DNA of 18,343 nt, from the NCBI GenBank assembly GCA_023488405.1, contig JAMDDW010000004.1, forward strand, positions 1 through 18,343. Reading direction: 5' to 3'. The notes under the pieces are model-generated. The model was not told the origin of the DNA. It saw only the letters and a program-made list of their open reading frames with translations, and did not search any database. Both the position numbers and the translations under genes were made by a program. This document shows, one piece after another, positions 3,755 to 18,138 of the stretch. The stretch comes from Candidatus Parvarchaeota archaeon (GTDB lineage: Archaea > Nanobdellota > Nanobdellia > Parvarchaeales > Parvarchaeaceae). Every line of letters begins with the position of its first letter. Within the stretch, counting starts at the first letter, position 1.

Positions 3755-5104
3755 TCAACTGCATTTCAAAGTATTTCCTATCAAAGAATAGGAAGAATCA
3801 AATATTTTTTCATTGCTAGATGAAAAATCTGCGCCGAATTCAAAACAGATAGTTGAGTTCTTAACATACAATTCAATAGCTGCCGAATAAAAGGGTACTC
3901 TTGTAATATTGAATATCTTGCTGCTTCCGTATATTAATTGTATTCCTACATTATTTGACATATTCACAAAGAACATCTGTGAAGGCAGGTACTTTCCTAG
4001 GTTTTTGCCACTTTCACTAGAGTATAGATATTTTGTAGCATTTATCGGAAAGCTGGAATTTACTAAAGTTATGTTGAGTCTTTTAAGGTAAGATTCGAAT
4101 TTAGAGGGGGAAAGACTCAGTATGCTTATGTTATCCGAAGAGTTTATTTTTTGCTTACCGGTTATTATGAAGTAAAACTGGCTTAACTCCGGGAAATATC
4201 CATCTAAGTAAGCTCTGGCGTTTTTGGAGTTGTTTTGTTTGGTGTATTGGGTTATGTTTAATGCCTTCAGATTAGACGCAAATTCGGGAGAGTTGCCGAT
4301 GGCAGAAACTATAAATGAAGTGGGCAATAAAACGTTTATACTGGTATTTTTGAGTATTCTTGTAAGGTTATTAGTGCTTGCGTTTGAGGAGTTGCTTAAT
4401 GAAAGCAATGGGCCTGCAGATGCAAAAATGCCATTCAAGTTTATATTTACAAGGGAGTTTGGATAACTGTAATTTATAGCTGTGGAATGAAAAGTGCTCC
4501 TTCCTAAGGAGCCTGTAAAGATAGAAAACAGTGACTGGCTGCCAAGGTTTGATAATGAGCTAGATTGGAGCGGGAAAAAAGCATACAATACTGCAAAAAA
4601 CACAAATATAAGAAAAGCGGCTGCAAAAAAGAAGCCCACTCCCGGGAGAACATCTTCAAGCCCACCATTCATATCTTTCCAGCTGGTTAGAATTGATATT
4701 ATTATTGCAGCATAAACTAATATCAGTATATAAAAAATATACCCTGATAAGGTAAGGTTAAACGAAATTCCCGCTATAGTTATTCCTATCAATGAAGAAA
4801 CAGACAAAAGGATTGCAAGTATCCCTCCTTTTACTCTCCTTTCCTTTAGCCATTTACTGCTGGTATGGAAAAGCCTGCTTAGTATGATAATTGAAATGCC
4901 CAATACTATCCCCACTCCTGATATAAATCCTATATCTGAAGGCAAGAATACGGAGATTACTGACTTAGGTAGGAATGTACTTAATACGTTTACACCCAAA
5001 AAAATAAGCAGCCCAGTGAATAGAAACGCCAATCCAATTATTAGTGAGATAAATCCTATTATTGATAGAAGGATACGTGCGGCGCCGGCGGTATTTCCTT
5101 TCAT
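3755..5104 (-). CDS. Five-TM membrane protein with glycosylated ectodomain
   Basis: This 449-residue protein has five hydrophobic segments in its first half (about 11-37, 58-77, 92-112, 120-140 and 155-176) and a C-terminal domain of about 270 residues. That domain is rich in Ser, Asn, Ile and Tyr and has about 15 N-x-S/T sequons. The odd number of segments with the basic loop RLFHTSSKWLKERRVK (77-92) inside places the C-terminal domain outside the cell, where archaeal N-glycosylation would occur. Two Cys near the end (TICFEF and the final LKCS) could form a disulfide. I do not recognise a family. A short stretch (YFPELSQFYF) resembles FPGLNQIYL in the 531-residue surface protein at 6550-8145, so the two may be distant relatives. 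A surface or envelope role is inferred. Confidence 0.8.
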   Translation of the reverse strand: MKGNTAGAARILLSIIGFISLIIGLAFLFTGLLIFLGVNVLSTFLPKSVISVFLPSDIGFISGVGIVLGISIIILSRLFHTSSKWLKERRVKGGILAILLSVSSLIGITIAGISFNLTLSGYIFYILILVYAAIIISILTSWKDMNGGLEDVLPGVGFFFAAAFLIFVFFAVLYAFFPLQSSSLSNLGSQSLFSIFTGSLGRSTFHSTAINYSYPNSLVNINLNGIFASAGPLLSLSNSSNASTNNLTRILKNTSINVLLPTSFIVSAIGNSPEFASNLKALNITQYTKQNNSKNARAYLDGYFPELSQFYFIITGKQKINSSDNISILSLSPSKFESYLKRLNITLVNSSFPINATKYLYSSESGKNLGKYLPSQMFFVNMSNNVGIQLIYGSSKIFNITRVPFYSAAIELYVKNSTICFEFGADFSSSNEKIFDSSYSLIGNTLKCS

Positions 5105-6549: not shown

Positions 6550-8145
6550 CTAATTTAAATAGTCCAGTTTAAAATTTTTGATGAAATTAGCCATTCCAGA
6601 ATTAACTTCATTTATGTAGACTTTGCCAGTAGAAACTGCTGAAATTTCATAAAGACTTGAATTTGTTACTCCTAAAACAGTTATTACATCATAGGATGAC
6701 AGATTTGCTACTACTTTTATCGCAGGTATGGCGTCTAAGGTTATGTTGGATATGGAGATGCTAGGTATGCCTAAAAAGGTATGGTAGTAGTAACTAAGAT
6801 TTTTAGTGGTGTTCGACACTCCCAGCAATATGGTTGTGCCATTTATTCCATTAGTTGAAGAGCCATTTTCCATTGCTAATACGGCATTTCCTGCCCCAAA
6901 AAGATAGTAATTTTCAAATACCCCTGGATTAATTCCCTCATCAGCAGCTGCAGTGGGAGACAGATATATTTGATTCAGTCCTGGAAAGCTGTCTGAAACC
7001 AAGGCAGTCAAATCAGCGTTTGCAGCAAGGGCTTTAGTGCTATTTGTAGGAGCTGCCGGCATAATATTTAGCTCTCCAATAGTTTGTAATAAACTGCTTT
7101 CGTTCAAAGTATAAGAGCCGGATGGAAGAGAAGACAGAATTGAGACTGATGACGGAGCAGGATTAAATGCCGATTTAAAGGAAGCAGATAGCACTATATC
7201 GGAGAAGTTTGGCATTGAACCCGCGTTTCCATATGAATTAAAGAGACTTGTTATTGCTGATGAATCTCTTGTCAGGTTAAGCACAAAACTGCCATTCAAA
7301 GGTATGCCATAGGTATTTGAAAAGCAGAAATTGAAGTGCATTGAAGAGTTATATTTGCTTTCAAATGCAGGCGTAGTGTTTATGCCCAGCAAAGAGCAAG
7401 AATTTCCGTTATAACTCTCGCTTTTCATGTATTTGACCCGTACATAATCGTTGAATTGACTTATGTTTGATATGTTTGCTGACGCCATTGATGTGCTTAA
7501 AATGCTTGAAAGAGCGCTTGAATTTGCCAGATTATTTGTTTTTAATGAGACACAAAGCAGTGAATTATTGCCTATCTTGGAGTCATTCATTGCATACCCT
7601 ACGATAGATAAGCTGGTATTTTCCGCGGAAGCCAGCATTGAGAAAGGAATGCACAATGTACCGTAAGAGATATTTGATAATAAAGTAAGGTTCACTGTAT
7701 CAAGGAACTTTGGAAATGAAGACAGGTTTATACTTTTACTTAAGCTGTCTATATCTTTTACAAGCGCACCTAAGTTAATATCGGCCGTTTGTCTTATATA
7801 CGGCTTATAATGGGCGATATAACCGTTAATTGGCAGATTAAAGGAGAAAACTGAAGTTCCAGAAGTGGCGCTTAGGCTTAGAAGCAAACTATATGAAAGA
7901 TTGAATGGGCCGCTGGAATTCTGCAGCTTTGAAATAGTCGAACTTAATTGCTGCACATTAGCAATACTGTAATACGGATTAACAGAAGTTGAAAGCTTGA
8001 GGAAAGGGATATACCCTTCATATGATGCGAAGACGAATACCAAAACAGCTAATAATACTATAATTACTATTATACCAGCAGTTTTATGTCCTATTTGACC
8101 TTTATTCGGTTCTGAACTTATTTGTATATTTTTTGGATTATCCAT
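6550..8145 (-). CDS. Secreted, membrane-anchored glycoprotein-like surface protein
   Basis: This 531-residue protein has a short polar N-terminus (1-22), one membrane segment (about 24-41) and a large outer domain of about 485 residues. The outer part is low in charge, rich in Ser, Asn, Leu and Ala, and has about 25 N-x-S/T sequons. This points to a type II orientation with a heavily N-glycosylated ectodomain. Six Cys occur, three of them between residues 250 and 290, so disulfides are possible. No family recognised; the repeated pattern of Ser/Asn-rich strands suggests a beta-rich fold. It ends four bases from the convergent Nudix gene (stop at 6545), so its 3' end has almost no room for a separate terminator. 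It may form a surface set with the 102-residue protein upstream and the 449-residue protein. Confidence 0.8.
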   Translation of the reverse strand: MDNPKNIQISSEPNKGQIGHKTAGIIVIIVLLAVLVFVFASYEGYIPFLKLSTSVNPYYSIANVQQLSSTISKLQNSSGPFNLSYSLLLSLSATSGTSVFSFNLPINGYIAHYKPYIRQTADINLGALVKDIDSLSKSINLSSFPKFLDTVNLTLLSNISYGTLCIPFSMLASAENTSLSIVGYAMNDSKIGNNSLLCVSLKTNNLANSSALSSILSTSMASANISNISQFNDYVRVKYMKSESYNGNSCSLLGINTTPAFESKYNSSMHFNFCFSNTYGIPLNGSFVLNLTRDSSAITSLFNSYGNAGSMPNFSDIVLSASFKSAFNPAPSSVSILSSLPSGSYTLNESSLLQTIGELNIMPAAPTNSTKALAANADLTALVSDSFPGLNQIYLSPTAAADEGINPGVFENYYLFGAGNAVLAMENGSSTNGINGTTILLGVSNTTKNLSYYYHTFLGIPSISISNITLDAIPAIKVVANLSSYDVITVLGVTNSSLYEISAVSTGKVYINEVNSGMANFIKNFKLDYLN

Positions 8146-9856: not shown

Positions 9857-11056
9857 TTACCTATTTGCTATCCTAGAATAAAAACATGCGGGATCCGATG
9901 CAAGAATGTCGTGTTCGGAATAGTATGTTCTAGCCCTGCTTCCCCCGCACTGCCATTTGAATTCGCATTTTCCACAATAACCAGAGAAATCTCTTGCACG
10001 TATGCTTCTCATGATGCTGTTGTTTCTGTAGATCTCTACAATGTTATCCTTTCTTACATTACCAAGTTTTACTGGCAGAAAACCTCCTGGAAAGATAGTA
10101 CCGTCATTTCCTACAAAGATTATGCCATCACCATCCAATGTTCCGACTGGAGAGATGGTCGAATTATACTTTGGTTCTCCCTCCAAATTCATAAGCTCTG
10201 AATGCAAATGATCATAGAAAGGATCTCTCCAATAACTACCCTTCTTTATCCGCATGCTAACGACTCTCCTTTCAAATGGCGCTTCTACTGTTCTTATTAC
10301 CACCCCATATTTAGATGCATCGTAAAGGAAGTTACATACACTTTCGTATTCAGAGGGACTTATCTCCTGAAGCCCTGCTCCACGGCCAATTTTTATTAGG
10401 AAAAAAACCTCCCATACCTTTACTCCCAAGCTTTTTATAAGGTTGAATATTCGGGGAAGTTCATTTACATTGCTTTTCATAACTGTAGTATTTACCTGTA
10501 TGTTCAATCCAGCATCTATGGCATTTTTTATCGATTTTATAGTTGCATCGAATGTTCCATCAATTGATCTTATGTCATCATGTGTCTCCTTCACTGCGCC
10601 GTCCAGACTAATTGATATTGAAGTTGCGCCCAACTCCCGTATTTTTACCATTGCATTGTATGTTAGCAGGTTTGTTACAGCAGGTGATAAAGCAAATTTT
10701 ACGCCAAGTTCTTTTGCATGCTTCATAAGTTCAAATATATCCTTTCGCATAAGTGGGTCCCCGCCGGTGAATACTATAACGGGGTAAGGAATTCCGAATT
10801 CTGTGATTTTATCAATTAAGGCTAGCCCTTCTTCTGTTGTCAGTTCTCCAGGAAGAGCAGAATGTATCGCCGATGCCCTGCAATGCCTGCAAGCAAGCAT
10901 ACATGCTTTTGTAGTCTCCCAAAATACAAGTATTGGCTTTTGCGCGAATGAATGTGTGTTTGATTTCTTTGCTTCTTCACTGGCTGTGTAGCTACTGTTC
11001 TTTTTTTCTGATGTCTTTTCTGTTATAATTGCAGAACTACTGCCTACATGTGACAT
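9857..11056 (-). CDS. Radical SAM/SPASM protein, TIGR04053-like
   Basis: This is a 399-residue radical SAM enzyme. C52-x3-C56-x2-C59 (ACMLACRHC) binds the [4Fe-4S] cluster that cleaves SAM, and TGGDPLMRKD is the GGE-like motif. The ordered set SPAVTNLLT, ISISLDGAVKETHDDIR, INVNTTV-like strand, WEVFFLIKIGRGAG and EAPFERRVV matches the TIGR04053 radical SAM/SPASM family as I remember it. The C-terminal SPASM/twitch part has C361-x2-C364-x5-C370 and C391 for an auxiliary cluster, and GGFLPVKLGN before it. Residues 1-38 are a Ser/Lys-rich extension, probably disordered. The reaction is not established; relatives include peptide- and heme-modifying enzymes (NirJ/AhbD group). The nearby cytochrome b makes a heme role tempting but unproven. 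Its TATA box overlaps the stop of the upstream FMN reductase gene. Confidence 0.9.
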   Translation of the reverse strand: MSHVGSSSAIITEKTSEKKNSSYTASEEAKKSNTHSFAQKPILVFWETTKACMLACRHCRASAIHSALPGELTTEEGLALIDKITEFGIPYPVIVFTGGDPLMRKDIFELMKHAKELGVKFALSPAVTNLLTYNAMVKIRELGATSISISLDGAVKETHDDIRSIDGTFDATIKSIKNAIDAGLNIQVNTTVMKSNVNELPRIFNLIKSLGVKVWEVFFLIKIGRGAGLQEISPSEYESVCNFLYDASKYGVVIRTVEAPFERRVVSMRIKKGSYWRDPFYDHLHSELMNLEGEPKYNSTISPVGTLDGDGIIFVGNDGTIFPGGFLPVKLGNVRKDNIVEIYRNNSIMRSIRARDFSGYCGKCEFKWQCGGSRARTYYSEHDILASDPACFYSRIANR

Positions 11057-11677: not shown

Positions 11678-11699
11678 TAATATCGTAAGAGCGATATTA
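11678..11699. promoter_or_regulatory. Candidate operator: 8-base inverted repeat
   Basis: TAATATCG (11678-11685) and CGATATTA (11692-11699) are perfect reverse complements around six bases. The site lies just upstream of the FMN reductase TATA box, where an archaeal activator or repressor dimer could bind. It also overlaps the stop codon of the upstream Nudix-methyltransferase gene and could instead be a 3'-end hairpin, although no T tract follows. Confidence 0.4.
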
Positions 11700-12764
11700 C
11701 TTGATAAATGAAAGAACATCTGTTTTTATGTTATTAAGTCTGTCTAGAGGAAAGCTGTATAATTCATCAAATTCGAGGCCAAAATCTGCAAAAAACTGCT
11801 TGTAAGAATCCAAAGCTTTTATGGAATGGCGGTAAGCTACATACGATGAAGGCAAGATGTGGCGTTTTATACTAAGCGGTGAAAATACTAGTTTTCCATT
11901 TGGATTAATTGAAGAAAGAATGCTTTGCGCAAATAAGATGTAAGAAGGCTGGTATATAAAAGAGTTCAATGCTACTATGCTATTATATTTTTTGTTTGAA
12001 TGAAAACTCTCAGCTATTCCTTTTATAAAATGCAGTTTATTACCGAAATTTTTAATTAGATGGTACCTTGCTTCGGGAGAAAGTTCAACAATGTCAACAT
12101 TGCCGAATTTTTCTATCAATTTTTTCGTTATTTCCCCGAAGCCAGGATTTATCTGGAGCACGGGTGGCCTGAGTTTATCCAAAATATCTTCAATTTTGTC
12201 CGCAAGTCTTCTATCCAGATAGTTTTTATACCTGAAAAAAGAGGATAGTTTTCCAGACCAATAAGAAAGCTGCTCAAATGAATACACTGCACGGTTATCA
12301 AATGCGTTTCTTATTTTGTAGTATTCCGTTTTTAAGCCCGGAAAACGAAGCGAAAGGAAGTACATGGCATCTACTACTCTCCAACTTATATTTAGCATTG
12401 CTTTTATATCGCTTATCCTTGCCCATTTTACTTCAAGGGTTTCCTTGTCTTCCAGATCAACTGCCTTTGGCTCTCCTGCAAATGAATTTGACAAGAAAAA
12501 ATGGTCTATTTCCGTATTTATCCAGTGTATCCCCTGGTTTTTTGCGCCTAACCATATTGGATTCTTTAGGTCTATGTTTACTTCCTCCTTTGTTTCTCTT
12601 CTAACAGCTTCTTCAGGCGTTTCTCCTTCTTTTATTCCACCACCAGGAACCTCCCAAATGTGGCCATGTTTTGCTTTTCTCAAATCAAGAAGTATATAGT
12701 TTCCTTTTTTTACTATGCTTATTGCTCCCTGCCCTTCCAGCCTTTCCATATAATAATAGAGCAT
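11697..12764 (-). CDS. Nudix hydrolase fused to a methyltransferase-like domain
   Basis: This is a two-domain protein of 355 residues. Residues 8-135 are a Nudix hydrolase: GHIWEVPGG is followed by the Nudix box from G42 (E48, R56-E57, E60-E61), whose final Gly is N63; WAR and the following helix close the domain. Nudix enzymes cleave nucleoside diphosphates linked to another group. Residues 136-195 are a helical linker. Residues 196-355 resemble a Rossmann methyltransferase: VLQINPGFGEITKKL for motif I, VDIVELSPEA for strand 2, a FIKGIAES turn, a VALNSFIY motif IV region and NGKLVFSPL. The first motif I acidic residue is replaced (IN-PGFG), so SAM binding is uncertain. The ATG at 12764 is favoured by the shared TATA box; an internal ATG (MERLEG) is 15 bases later. 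I know of no such fusion with a defined role. Confidence 0.8.
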   Translation of the reverse strand: MLYYYMERLEGQGAISIVKKGNYILLDLRKAKHGHIWEVPGGGIKEGETPEEAVRRETKEEVNIDLKNPIWLGAKNQGIHWINTEIDHFFLSNSFAGEPKAVDLEDKETLEVKWARISDIKAMLNISWRVVDAMYFLSLRFPGLKTEYYKIRNAFDNRAVYSFEQLSYWSGKLSSFFRYKNYLDRRLADKIEDILDKLRPPVLQINPGFGEITKKLIEKFGNVDIVELSPEARYHLIKNFGNKLHFIKGIAESFHSNKKYNSIVALNSFIYQPSYILFAQSILSSINPNGKLVFSPLSIKRHILPSSYVAYRHSIKALDSYKQFFADFGLEFDELYSFPLDRLNNIKTDVLSFIK

Positions 12765-15546: not shown

Positions 15547-16188
15547 TTAAGGAGGAGCTGCGAGGTGGGCAGGAATCGCGGCTCCGCCGGTATAGGCTGC
15601 AAGCAGTGAGCCCAATGTTAAGAAGACTAAGAATATTACTATGTAAATGATCCAACTTTTATTTAATGGTTTATTGCTGCCATTCTCTCTATATTTGTCC
15701 ATTACCAATGTGGTTGGATAAGCGAATATTCCTGCAATGCCAAAAGCTGTATACAAACCAAGAAGTGCTATTGGAGATTTAGTATACCCTAGATTATAAC
15801 CGGAAATACCATATTCTATTAGGACTAAGCCCATGAATAATGCAATAAGTCCAACGTACTGCAATTTCTGATTATATTTAACTGATAATACGAATCCAAG
15901 GGTTACTATTCCCAACATTATGAACGGATCATAGAATAGTAAATTATATGCACCGGGTAAATTCCAGGTCATTTCTCCATAAAAGCCCATTACAAGAATG
16001 AATACTGCTATAGCCGCAAACATGTATATAGAGCCCTGTAAGTGTGATTCTATGCTCAATTTTGAATTTGATTTAGTTACATATCTTGCTTTGTAATCCC
16101 TATAAATAGCAATCACAGTATAATCCATAAGAAATCCGATAAATGCAACGAAGAACAATTCCAATGCCAATTCATCTACGAATCCCAT
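15547..16188 (-). CDS. DUF981 family membrane protein
   Basis: This 213-residue protein has six likely membrane segments (about 9-28, 54-70, 87-103, 110-126, 140-160 and 179-199). The block WNLPGAYNLLFYDPF (75-89) is the mark of the DUF981 family as I remember it, a set of archaeal membrane proteins seen in Sulfolobales and Thermoplasmatales. A role in the respiratory membrane is suggested by its position 55 bases downstream of the cytochrome b gene on the same strand. No heme-binding His pairs or metal motifs are visible, and the two His (49 and 208) are too far apart to suggest heme. It has its own TATA-like box, so the pair can be expressed together or apart. Confidence 0.82.
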   Translation of the reverse strand: MGFVDELALELFFVAFIGFLMDYTVIAIYRDYKARYVTKSNSKLSIESHLQGSIYMFAAIAVFILVMGFYGEMTWNLPGAYNLLFYDPFIMLGIVTLGFVLSVKYNQKLQYVGLIALFMGLVLIEYGISGYNLGYTKSPIALLGLYTAFGIAGIFAYPTTLVMDKYRENGSNKPLNKSWIIYIVIFLVFLTLGSLLAAYTGGAAIPAHLAAPP

Positions 16189-16243: not shown

Positions 16244-17677
16244 TTACTTTTTCTTCCGCATTTCAGGATTTGTGTACTTGTTCCAAAACAGCTTGTACAT
16301 CTTCAGTTTATCAGGCAATTTATTCAAATATGGAATAAATGGAAACAGCATCAATATGAAAAAGATGCTTATTGCTACCAATCCATTCTCAAGGTCATTC
16401 CACCATGAAATATTTGATGTTGCTATCTCAAGGGCATCGTATGGTATAAGCCAATATTCTATAGACCAGGGGGGTGCGCCTACCTTTAGCATTCCCCACT
16501 GTGCAGTCCTTAAGCCATAATGCGTTGCAGCAGTCGTCAACGCACCTGTATCGTACAAAAATCTTAAAACATACGTTTCATCCAATCCACTGGAGCTTTC
16601 ATTTTGTACCACTAATTGATATTCTCCCGATTCCGCCATTTTAGTCAAACTGGCAGTCGCAATTATTAATGGGTTTTGAGAATTCATTGCACTTGAAATT
16701 GAGCCATTGTTGCTAAAGTAATTATACGCTTGCATAAACTGCGCTTTTTGTTGCGAAGGGCTTTCATTAAAAAATATTGAAAGTTCATTTGTTTTATTTT
16801 CAAGGTTTACATAAGTGTAATATGGAACTGTGAAGTAAACTGCCCTAGTACTAAAAGTATACGGATCTATACTGTCAAGGTAAGTAGCAGTCCCCGATGA
16901 AAAGTTGAATTCCTGCAGCAAAGTAGTTGCAACTCCAGAAGGATTAGAATTTGCTGCCTGACTAATTGTCAAAGGTGCTATATACGGTGAGCTGAATACA
17001 AATGCAAACACCAATACTATTATGAAAATATAAATCATTCTTCTGTACATCTTTTTATGGTCTGCCTTTACCATCTTATAAGGTATGTCTTTTCTATAAG
17101 GAGTGCTTAATCCGTCTTTTTTTACCAATGAATAATGCATAAACATAAGCAGAATCAAAAGAATAGGGATTATGGCTACATGCCAGCCTAAAACGGCCCC
17201 TTGATTCAATGGATTTACCCAAAAGCCTAAGCCCATGCCATTCCATAGGTCCGCACCTGCCTTGTCGTTCCACTGTGAAAGCAGCCCCCCTTGGACTCCT
17301 ATACCAAATGCAAATTCTAGTAAAACCAAAAGAAGAAGCACACTGCCAATCATCCAAACAAGCTTTTTCTTTCTGAATGCAGACGTTGAAAAATTAACGA
17401 AAAGATGGATAAACATCAATGTCACAAAGGCTTCTGCTGCCCATAAATGTAAGCTTCGGAAGAAGGTACCGATTGCAGTAGTATCCCACCAGTAAGGGCC
17501 AAAAATTAGCATTATCATGCCGCTTATTGCCAATATTACGAATAATTCTAAAAGGTATATTCCTATCGTGAAAAAGAAGCTGTTGCCATAAGATGGCACA
17601 TATTTTATGTACTGATCATGCATTAAATCGATCAAAGGGCTAAAAAATGAGCTATTGCCTTTTTTATCCTTGTCCAT
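16244..17677 (-). CDS. Cytochrome b (b6/bc1 type) with enlarged quinol-site loop
   Basis: This is a di-heme cytochrome b of 477 residues, the membrane subunit that passes electrons from quinol in bc-type complexes. Helix A is about 35-60; helix B carries H77-x13-H91; helix C is 108-128; helix D carries H166-x14-H181, a b6-like spacing. R74 and nearby Gly residues fit the heme b sites. Helix E is 213-232. The next loop usually leads directly to PEWY, but here about 150 residues (roughly 245-395) rich in Asn, Ser and Tyr come first, with a few N-x-S/T sequons. IEYWLIPYDAL (406-416) stands at the PEWY position, and only one helix (430-450) follows. Residues 451-477 are basic. No Rieske protein gene is in the window; it may lie elsewhere. 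The large loop would be outside the cell. Confidence 0.88.
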   Translation of the reverse strand: MDKDKKGNSSFFSPLIDLMHDQYIKYVPSYGNSFFFTIGIYLLELFVILAISGMIMLIFGPYWWDTTAIGTFFRSLHLWAAEAFVTLMFIHLFVNFSTSAFRKKKLVWMIGSVLLLLVLLEFAFGIGVQGGLLSQWNDKAGADLWNGMGLGFWVNPLNQGAVLGWHVAIIPILLILLMFMHYSLVKKDGLSTPYRKDIPYKMVKADHKKMYRRMIYIFIIVLVFAFVFSSPYIAPLTISQAANSNPSGVATTLLQEFNFSSGTATYLDSIDPYTFSTRAVYFTVPYYTYVNLENKTNELSIFFNESPSQQKAQFMQAYNYFSNNGSISSAMNSQNPLIIATASLTKMAESGEYQLVVQNESSSGLDETYVLRFLYDTGALTTAATHYGLRTAQWGMLKVGAPPWSIEYWLIPYDALEIATSNISWWNDLENGLVAISIFFILMLFPFIPYLNKLPDKLKMYKLFWNKYTNPEMRKKK

Positions 17678-17760: not shown

Positions 17761-18138
17761 TTATATTTTTATAGGATTGCTAACTTCTTGGTTATTACCG
17801 TTTGGTCCATTTTGGCATTCTCCGCAGTTCTTAACGCTTTCTGAACCATTGCAATTGACTTTTTTAAATGTTTCAAATGCAGAAACTAGTGATTTGCCAG
17901 TTTCAGTCATGCTGTATTCACTCCTTTTCATGTTATTGTTATATGATACCTTCTTGGTTATGAGCCCTCTTTTCACTAAATCATTTAACGCTTTATTAAG
18001 CGTTTTAGGGTATATCTTAGGATTCAATGAAAGCAGCTTGTCGAAGTTTATGCCATCATTTTTGGTTATTTCCTCTAATACTGTTGCGTCCCACTTCTTT
18101 CCAAGCACATTCAAAAGGTCTAAAGTATTGCATGCCAT
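17761..18138 (-). CDS. HxlR-type winged-helix regulator with Cys-rich tail
   Basis: This 125-residue transcription factor fits the HxlR family: LLNVLGKKWDATVLEEI at the N-terminus (8-24), YPKTLNKALNDLVKRGLITKK as recognition helix and wing start (43-63), and YSMTETGKSL (75-84) as the wing end. Such proteins bind DNA as dimers, and many sense redox or electrophiles through Cys. Here C3 stands before the domain, where HxlR members often keep a sensing Cys, and C95, C104 and C107 (CGEC) follow in a Gly/Asn-rich tail, so metal or disulfide sensing is plausible. It could act on the redox genes in the window, for example at the inverted repeat upstream of the FMN reductase, or on the gene upstream. 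The promoter is weak (TGCATTAAAG about 18161-18170). Confidence 0.88.
   Translation of the reverse strand: MACNTLDLLNVLGKKWDATVLEEITKNDGINFDKLLSLNPKIYPKTLNKALNDLVKRGLITKKVSYNNNMKRSEYSMTETGKSLVSAFETFKKVNCNGSESVKNCGECQNGPNGNNQEVSNPIKI

Follow-up and report, generated by a model that had tools for sequence, protein, structure and literature searches.

What can a cytochrome b do when the loop leading to its outer quinol site carries a whole extra domain? The question is raised by a gene in the window, i.e., the whole stretch of 18,343 nucleotides analysed here (contig JAMDDW010000004.1 of the Candidatus Parvarchaeota archaeon assembly GCA_023488405.1). The gene occupies positions 16244–17677 of the minus strand, stop codon included, and encodes a cytochrome b family protein of 477 amino acids; the plus-strand translation of the same interval is riddled with stops. 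The protein scores 57 bits with PF13631 (Cytochrom_B_N_2), for which the gathering cut-off is 27, and does not reach the cut-off of NCBIfam NF040969 (ExtP, the cytochrome b of selenite/tellurite operons; 40.6 bits versus 290). Judging from its sequence and those of its relatives, it consists of helices A–F, with a helical domain some 170 residues long inserted after helix E and ahead of the ef helix, and has neither a conserved PEWY acid nor helices G and H. We see an even chance that it represents a distinct dihaem cytochrome b branch acting as an electron conduit across the membrane, linked to quinone and running no Rieske Q-cycle, with an outward quinol exit as its likeliest use in Parvarchaeota.

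A dihaem core followed by a predicted all-helical insert

The archaeal-side alignment comprises 131 rows, namely the window protein and 130 of the 131 proteins with the ids P0001–P0131 (P0119 was dropped for its length). The dihaem core, helices A–D (residues 38–188; 17114–17566, minus strand, as are all features of the window given below), is supported by sequence match and by the structural model, and superposes on QcrB. Its haem ligands H77 (17447–17449), H91 (17405–17407), H166 (17180–17182) and H181 (17135–17137) are conserved in 131/131 rows, and also in 120/120 rows of an actinobacterial group described below. The first-pass annotation of this DNA, made from the letters alone, had called both ligand pairs intact and the spacing of the second one b6-like, and both statements hold: H166 and H181 enclose 14 residues. 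We infer that the four invariant His residues bind two b haems.

Cytochrome b6 stops after helix D, and the remainder with the PEWY motif is carried by subunit IV. The cytochrome b6 of b6f (1q90) was the best match among solved chains (E 5.5e-8), the likeness lying in the spacing of the second haem pair and in the end of helix D. In the window protein the model continues with helix E (residues 207–227; 16997–17059) and, behind the insert, with helix F (residues 428–443; 16349–16396), so that the cytochrome b fold is present from A to F. Helix F is the last transmembrane helix, and the printed rows of relatives look alike by eye, in agreement with the earlier remark that a single helix follows the insert; helices G and H are absent from the protein in the model. 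QcrB, for its part, has these further helices and a short link from helix E to the ef helix. The protein shares helices A–F and both haem pairs with QcrB of Mycobacterium bc1 (9gy6), whereas the acidic PEWY equivalent PDFY and the Rieske and cytochrome cc partners are QcrB's own (PMC8361435; this and the other papers are cited for individual passages). No subunit IV was named among 30 neighbour genes, with no genome-wide search for PF00032 made.

The insert spans residues 236–405 (16463–16972), as delimited by the model, the alignment and the actinobacterial homology. The loop between helix E and the PEWY position had been noted as long and rich in Asn, Ser and Tyr, and it is both: it has 170 residues here and 168–187 in all 131 rows, and the three amino acids make up 27% of it versus 15% of the rest of the window protein. 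On the alignment, the insert is a family trait and not a chance feature. Being standard in its family, it can no longer pass for a unique anomaly, but this leaves untouched the idea of a modified quinol site that had been attached to it. Folded alone, the insert gave a predicted all-helical domain; no convincing relative of it was found among solved structures, and the 131 rows show no conserved His or Cys in it. Two acids, E256 (16910–16912) and D376 (16550–16552), are invariant (131/131 and 120/120 rows). There are 7 Lys/Arg in the 196 residues of the outer loop versus 8 in the 25 residues of the DE loop, and N-glycosylation-like sequons number 3.4 per 100 residues in the insert versus 0.6 elsewhere, which is partly an effect of the Asn/Ser richness. 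These figures fit a location of the insert outside the membrane, where we would place it. No support emerged for the proposal that it shields the site in an acidic medium; the domain is conserved also in the actinobacterial group (habitats unexamined).

The supposed PEWY position has no conserved acid

The motif IEYW (residues 406–409; 16451–16462), which stands at the supposed PEWY position of the quinol oxidation (Qo) site, was originally read as keeping the PEWY Glu in place. This does not hold for the family: residue 407 is Glu in just 9 of the 131 rows and otherwise mostly Gln (49), Ser (47), Ala (8) or Met (8), with small gaps near this column by which individual rows may be shifted. Conservation around it is high (Y408 in 120 rows, W409 in 124, P412 in 130, Y413 in 129), and the same column is Gln in 120/120 rows of the actinobacterial group. 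A PEWY-type motif with a conserved acid is, then, lacking at residue 407 in the 131-row family. Nor did the motif align with PEWY when the C-terminal part was compared as a profile with seven ordinary cytochrome b sequences; only helix F matched (E 0.012). The model has a helix (408–419) after IEYW, as expected of the ef helix, and on that basis IEYW is supposed to lie at the Qo site. As for the modified quinol site, a changed p-side site finds support at the level of the family, and the part of the claim that had the Glu retained fails. The change of the outer (p-side) site is supported by the lack of a conserved PEWY acid, by the missing helices G and H, and by the fact that no membrane Rieske protein was detected.

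The insert in ultrasmall archaea and Actinomycetota

The first homologue search gave 226 proteins, 120 of which were listed, most without an organism name; those named among the 120 are labelled Parvarchaeota, Micrarchaeota-type archaea (Mancarchaeum among them), Marsarchaeota or a mine drainage metagenome. The named close relatives are Candidatus Parvarchaeota, including ARMAN-5 (ARMAN, archaeal Richmond Mine acidophilic nanoorganisms), with some record titles saying Nanoarchaeota. The carriers are tiny archaea, many of them from acid mine waters, and the gene-bearing genomes are small (about 0.4–1.3 Mb). A protein labelled Acidilobus (P0131) nevertheless groups with the Nanobdella clade, and Nanobdella aerobiophila, which is cultivated together with its host, carries an insert-bearing cytochrome b (P0124). 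The gene was matched in 27 of 55 genomes, the own genome included, and in 26 after leaving out G005; the match in one of the 26 (G024) is a contig-end piece. G005, which is of the same genus, has an insert-less cytochrome b of 433 amino acids (L030, 4106–5404) and no insert-bearing match. In the set around G055 (the genome of a locus labelled Micrarchaeota), the gene was matched in 70 of 295 genomes. In 58 of these the match spans most of the model; the other 12, with partial or ordinary-type matches, were left out of the Rieske scan.

A profile search reached two insert-bearing proteins of 600 residues, P0132 (E 4.5e-57) and P0133 (E 7.5e-55), and these two, used as queries, yielded 3220 matches. 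The 120 that were listed, each covering 95% or more of the query, were aligned, and it is for these that the presence of the insert is known; three of them bear an organism name, one being 'Actinomycetota bacterium' and two Trebonia, a genus of Actinomycetota. These bacterial 'cytochrome b N-terminal domain-containing' proteins (about 600 amino acids; P0132, P0206 and kin) have the same dihaem core and a homologous insert, lack an acid in the 407 column and end after helix F. They differ in an extra N-terminal hydrophobic helix with a linker, both absent from the window protein, and in a longer DE loop, and are 22–28% identical. When the inserts alone of the archaeal and actinobacterial groups were compared as profiles (hhalign), they matched with E 3.3e-8, and the cores with E 2.1e-29. 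The two groups agree on the residue in 59 columns, with 90% or more of the rows of each group carrying it; these columns include the four His, E256, S261, T263, Y266, P272, P285, F321, D376, G395 and D428. By these comparisons, the insert of the two groups is of common ancestry. A plasmid search for the actinobacterial-group gene gave no match.

Rieske proteins, oxidases and the direction of electron flow

No Rieske protein was found in the own genome, a draft of 419,610 bases in 49 contigs that is 71% complete. Rieske matches occur in 9 of the 55 genomes, 6 of these among the 26 with the gene and 3 among the 29 without it, and in 21 of the 58 gene-bearing genomes around G055. All 32 matches were inspected (L082 is truncated at a contig end). 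The 29 that belong to 27 gene-bearing genomes are of the soluble type, with no membrane segment, and no membrane-anchored Rieske protein was found in these drafts; the sole membrane-like match (L072, with a lipoprotein-like start) is in G033, a genome without the gene. Chance frames of the Rieske pattern scan in L059, L060, L061 and L068, including a membrane-like one in L068, differ from the family-match frames and were set aside. The soluble Rieske ferredoxins might themselves be thought to work with the cytochrome b, as they are present in gene-bearing genomes of both sets, but most gene-bearing genomes are without one, three genomes have one without the gene, and proteins with no membrane segment are probably cytoplasmic, which is the wrong side. 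We judged them unlikely as p-side partners, and regard this explanation as highly improbable. As a separate observation, soluble Rieske matches were present in 6 of the 13 gene-bearing genomes without CydA (G003, G012, G014, G021, G024 and G027) and in none of the 13 with it, a count uncorrected for kinship. We infer that the insert-bearing cytochrome b runs no Rieske-dependent Q-cycle; it is possible, as was proposed at first, that the outer domain replaces Rieske docking.

A haem-copper oxidase was found in none of the 55 genomes. Among the 26 gene-bearing genomes, 18 match PF00346, 17 the flavoprotein domain of succinate dehydrogenase (SDH) and 13 CydA, and six whose completeness is 88% or more have PF00346 and neither oxidase. 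Nanobdella has CydA and no match for complex I or SDH. In the conduit that we propose, electrons would cross the membrane through the two haems in series, passing between the quinone pool and a partner outside, be it Fe(III), host quinol or something soluble; closing the haem bL side and selecting the partner would fall to the outer domain. Such a conduit would fit better than a Rieske-dependent Q-cycle, because the haems are serial, the inner end is b6-like, and the outer end is without conserved PEWY acid, membrane Rieske or recognisable metal site. In Parvarchaeota outward flow would be likeliest, providing an exit for quinol where terminal oxidases went undetected, and genomes without any oxidase match make this the simplest use. 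Alternatively, electrons might flow inward from an outside or host donor, notably in Nanobdella, as CydA is present there while complex I and SDH are unmatched.

The conduit may be given a named acceptor, the protein being a ferric reductase or exchanging electrons with the host via its surface haem bL, with the outer domain as the docking face. In support of that, archaeal growth in an ARMAN-containing consortium needed ferric sulfate, and unknown or undetected respiratory components were postulated (PMC5468238); moreover, some genomes with PF00346 have no oxidase match at all. However, iron reduction was shown for B_DKE and not for the ARMAN member (PMC5468238), the insert offers no conserved His or Cys, and life on iron is not a given for the actinobacterial group. 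In this specific form we hold the reading to be unlikely. A broader picture, which we put forward tentatively and with some doubt, would be that of a second, Rieske-independent cytochrome b lineage, found in Actinomycetota and in ultrasmall archaea alike. Its dedicated helical outer domain would take over from both the PEWY acid and the Rieske protein, and its dihaem core would be a port between the quinone pool and an external acceptor or host, and in oxidase-less ARMAN-type archaea the missing respiratory exit. If this is true, an overlooked cytochrome b branch may be the missing exit of the respiratory chain of ultrasmall archaea. In any case, the insert-bearing branch is a concrete, testable protein for the question of the unknown ARMAN respiratory parts, with a named species that has the gene, Nanobdella aerobiophila, and with bacterial relatives that may be open to genetics.

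Points that weigh against the conduit

Several points speak against the conduit as we propose it. Its direction, quinone binding and acceptor are putative, and the absences that it leans on are soft, because the genomes are drafts. The gene is not the only answer, since 13 of the 26 gene-bearing genomes have CydA and 3 of the 28 family genomes with PF00346 or SDH (G005, G023 and G029) have neither the gene nor CydA; in addition, PF00346 can match hydrogenase-like proteins. In the insert, M396 is Met in 117/131 rows, by which a metal role of the insert might be possible. A tree of the helix A–D core (insert excluded) sets 39 insert-bearing rows, archaeal and actinobacterial, apart from 9 ordinary rows with support of 100/99, but long branches that join there were flagged and the midpoint root is a drawing aid, so the depth and direction of any transfer are left open.

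The Qo site itself may still work. An acid slightly downstream, E417, is Glu in 112/131 rows and could serve it, and the ordinary actinobacterial QcrB also has a shifted acid, Asp309 (PMC8361435). The protein could be a bifurcating quinol oxidase of the Qo type after all, in which the role of the PEWY Glu is taken by E417 or by one of the invariant acids E256 and D376, and that of Rieske by an unlinked one-electron carrier, e.g., a blue copper protein. The helix at the ef position and helix F in the model would suit this, as would the rusticyanin clusters described in six Parvarchaeota genomes (PMC5864196). On the other hand, helices G and H are missing, and E417 is unmatched in the actinobacterial group, where the printed rows have a gap. 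Across 16 divergent loci, the 30 nearest neighbours of the gene include 12 that match no Pfam family, and Pfam named none of the 30 as an electron-carrier family (the scan covered 30 of 31, the one left out being a 94-amino-acid neighbour in L033); a rubrerythrin-like gene adjoining the cytochrome b gene in L014 came nearest. We consider a bifurcating oxidase rather unlikely.

Relation to published surveys

The gene has been listed before. PetB was reported in 60.5% of Parvarchaeota and 33.7% of Micrarchaeota and called derived by lateral gene transfer (PMC8407392), and this PetB is very probably the same gene as the insert-bearing cytochrome b. That paper treats PetB as a complex III subunit, whereas neither the insert nor the loss of the motif comes up in its cited passages. 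In four metagenome-assembled genomes petB was found without iron-sulfur and c1 subunits (PMC7779479), and surveys that saw cytochrome b mostly without an iron-sulfur partner doubted its respiratory role (PMC5864196, PMC7779479). What was already known, then, is a PetB without Rieske; the outer domain, the missing acid and the actinobacterial kinship go unmentioned in the passages cited. Among the papers listed in the literature searches, no title or abstract opening described an insert-bearing cytochrome b family, subscription papers lying mostly outside the search. As a side observation, Mia14 was stated to have no complex III (PMC5498576), whereas the insert-bearing family includes P0058, titled 'cytochrome b subunit of the bc complex [Candidatus Mancarchaeum acidiphilum]'.

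Neighbouring genes

In close relatives the downstream neighbour of the cytochrome b gene encodes a DUF981 membrane protein (15547–16188 in the window), recognised by family match and locus comparison. DUF981 matches occur in 23 of the 26 gene-bearing genomes, directly adjacent to the gene in 10 of the 26 by coordinates, and are missing from the other 3 and from G056. As adjacency is limited to close relatives and some genomes have no match, DUF981 was rejected as a generally obligate partner, and the case for a fixed partnership is weak.

On the other side of the gene lies an HxlR-type regulator by family match (17761–18138), and such regulators flank the cytochrome b gene in close relatives and, among divergent loci, in L014 (863–1207) and L028 (3934–4317), a hint of shared regulation. 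This arrangement, and the fact that no neighbour is common to more than 5 of the 11 loci compared, would suit an accessory or relict haem protein, non-catalytic and used in redox sensing or haem storage. Such a role is quite improbable, as the haem ligands and insert residues are conserved across the archaeal and bacterial groups and the gene is kept in small genomes.

Elsewhere in the window, a radical SAM/SPASM protein (9857–11056) exceeds the TIGR04053 cut-off and scores 282 bits for the haem b synthase AhbD (cut-off 500); lying near a haem protein gene, it is possibly haem-related. Two long proteins rich in Asn and Ser (3755–5104 and 6550–8145), perhaps located at the surface, have hydrophobic stretches and match no Pfam family, and at 11697–12764 a NUDIX hydrolase and a methyltransferase-like domain follow each other in a single protein.
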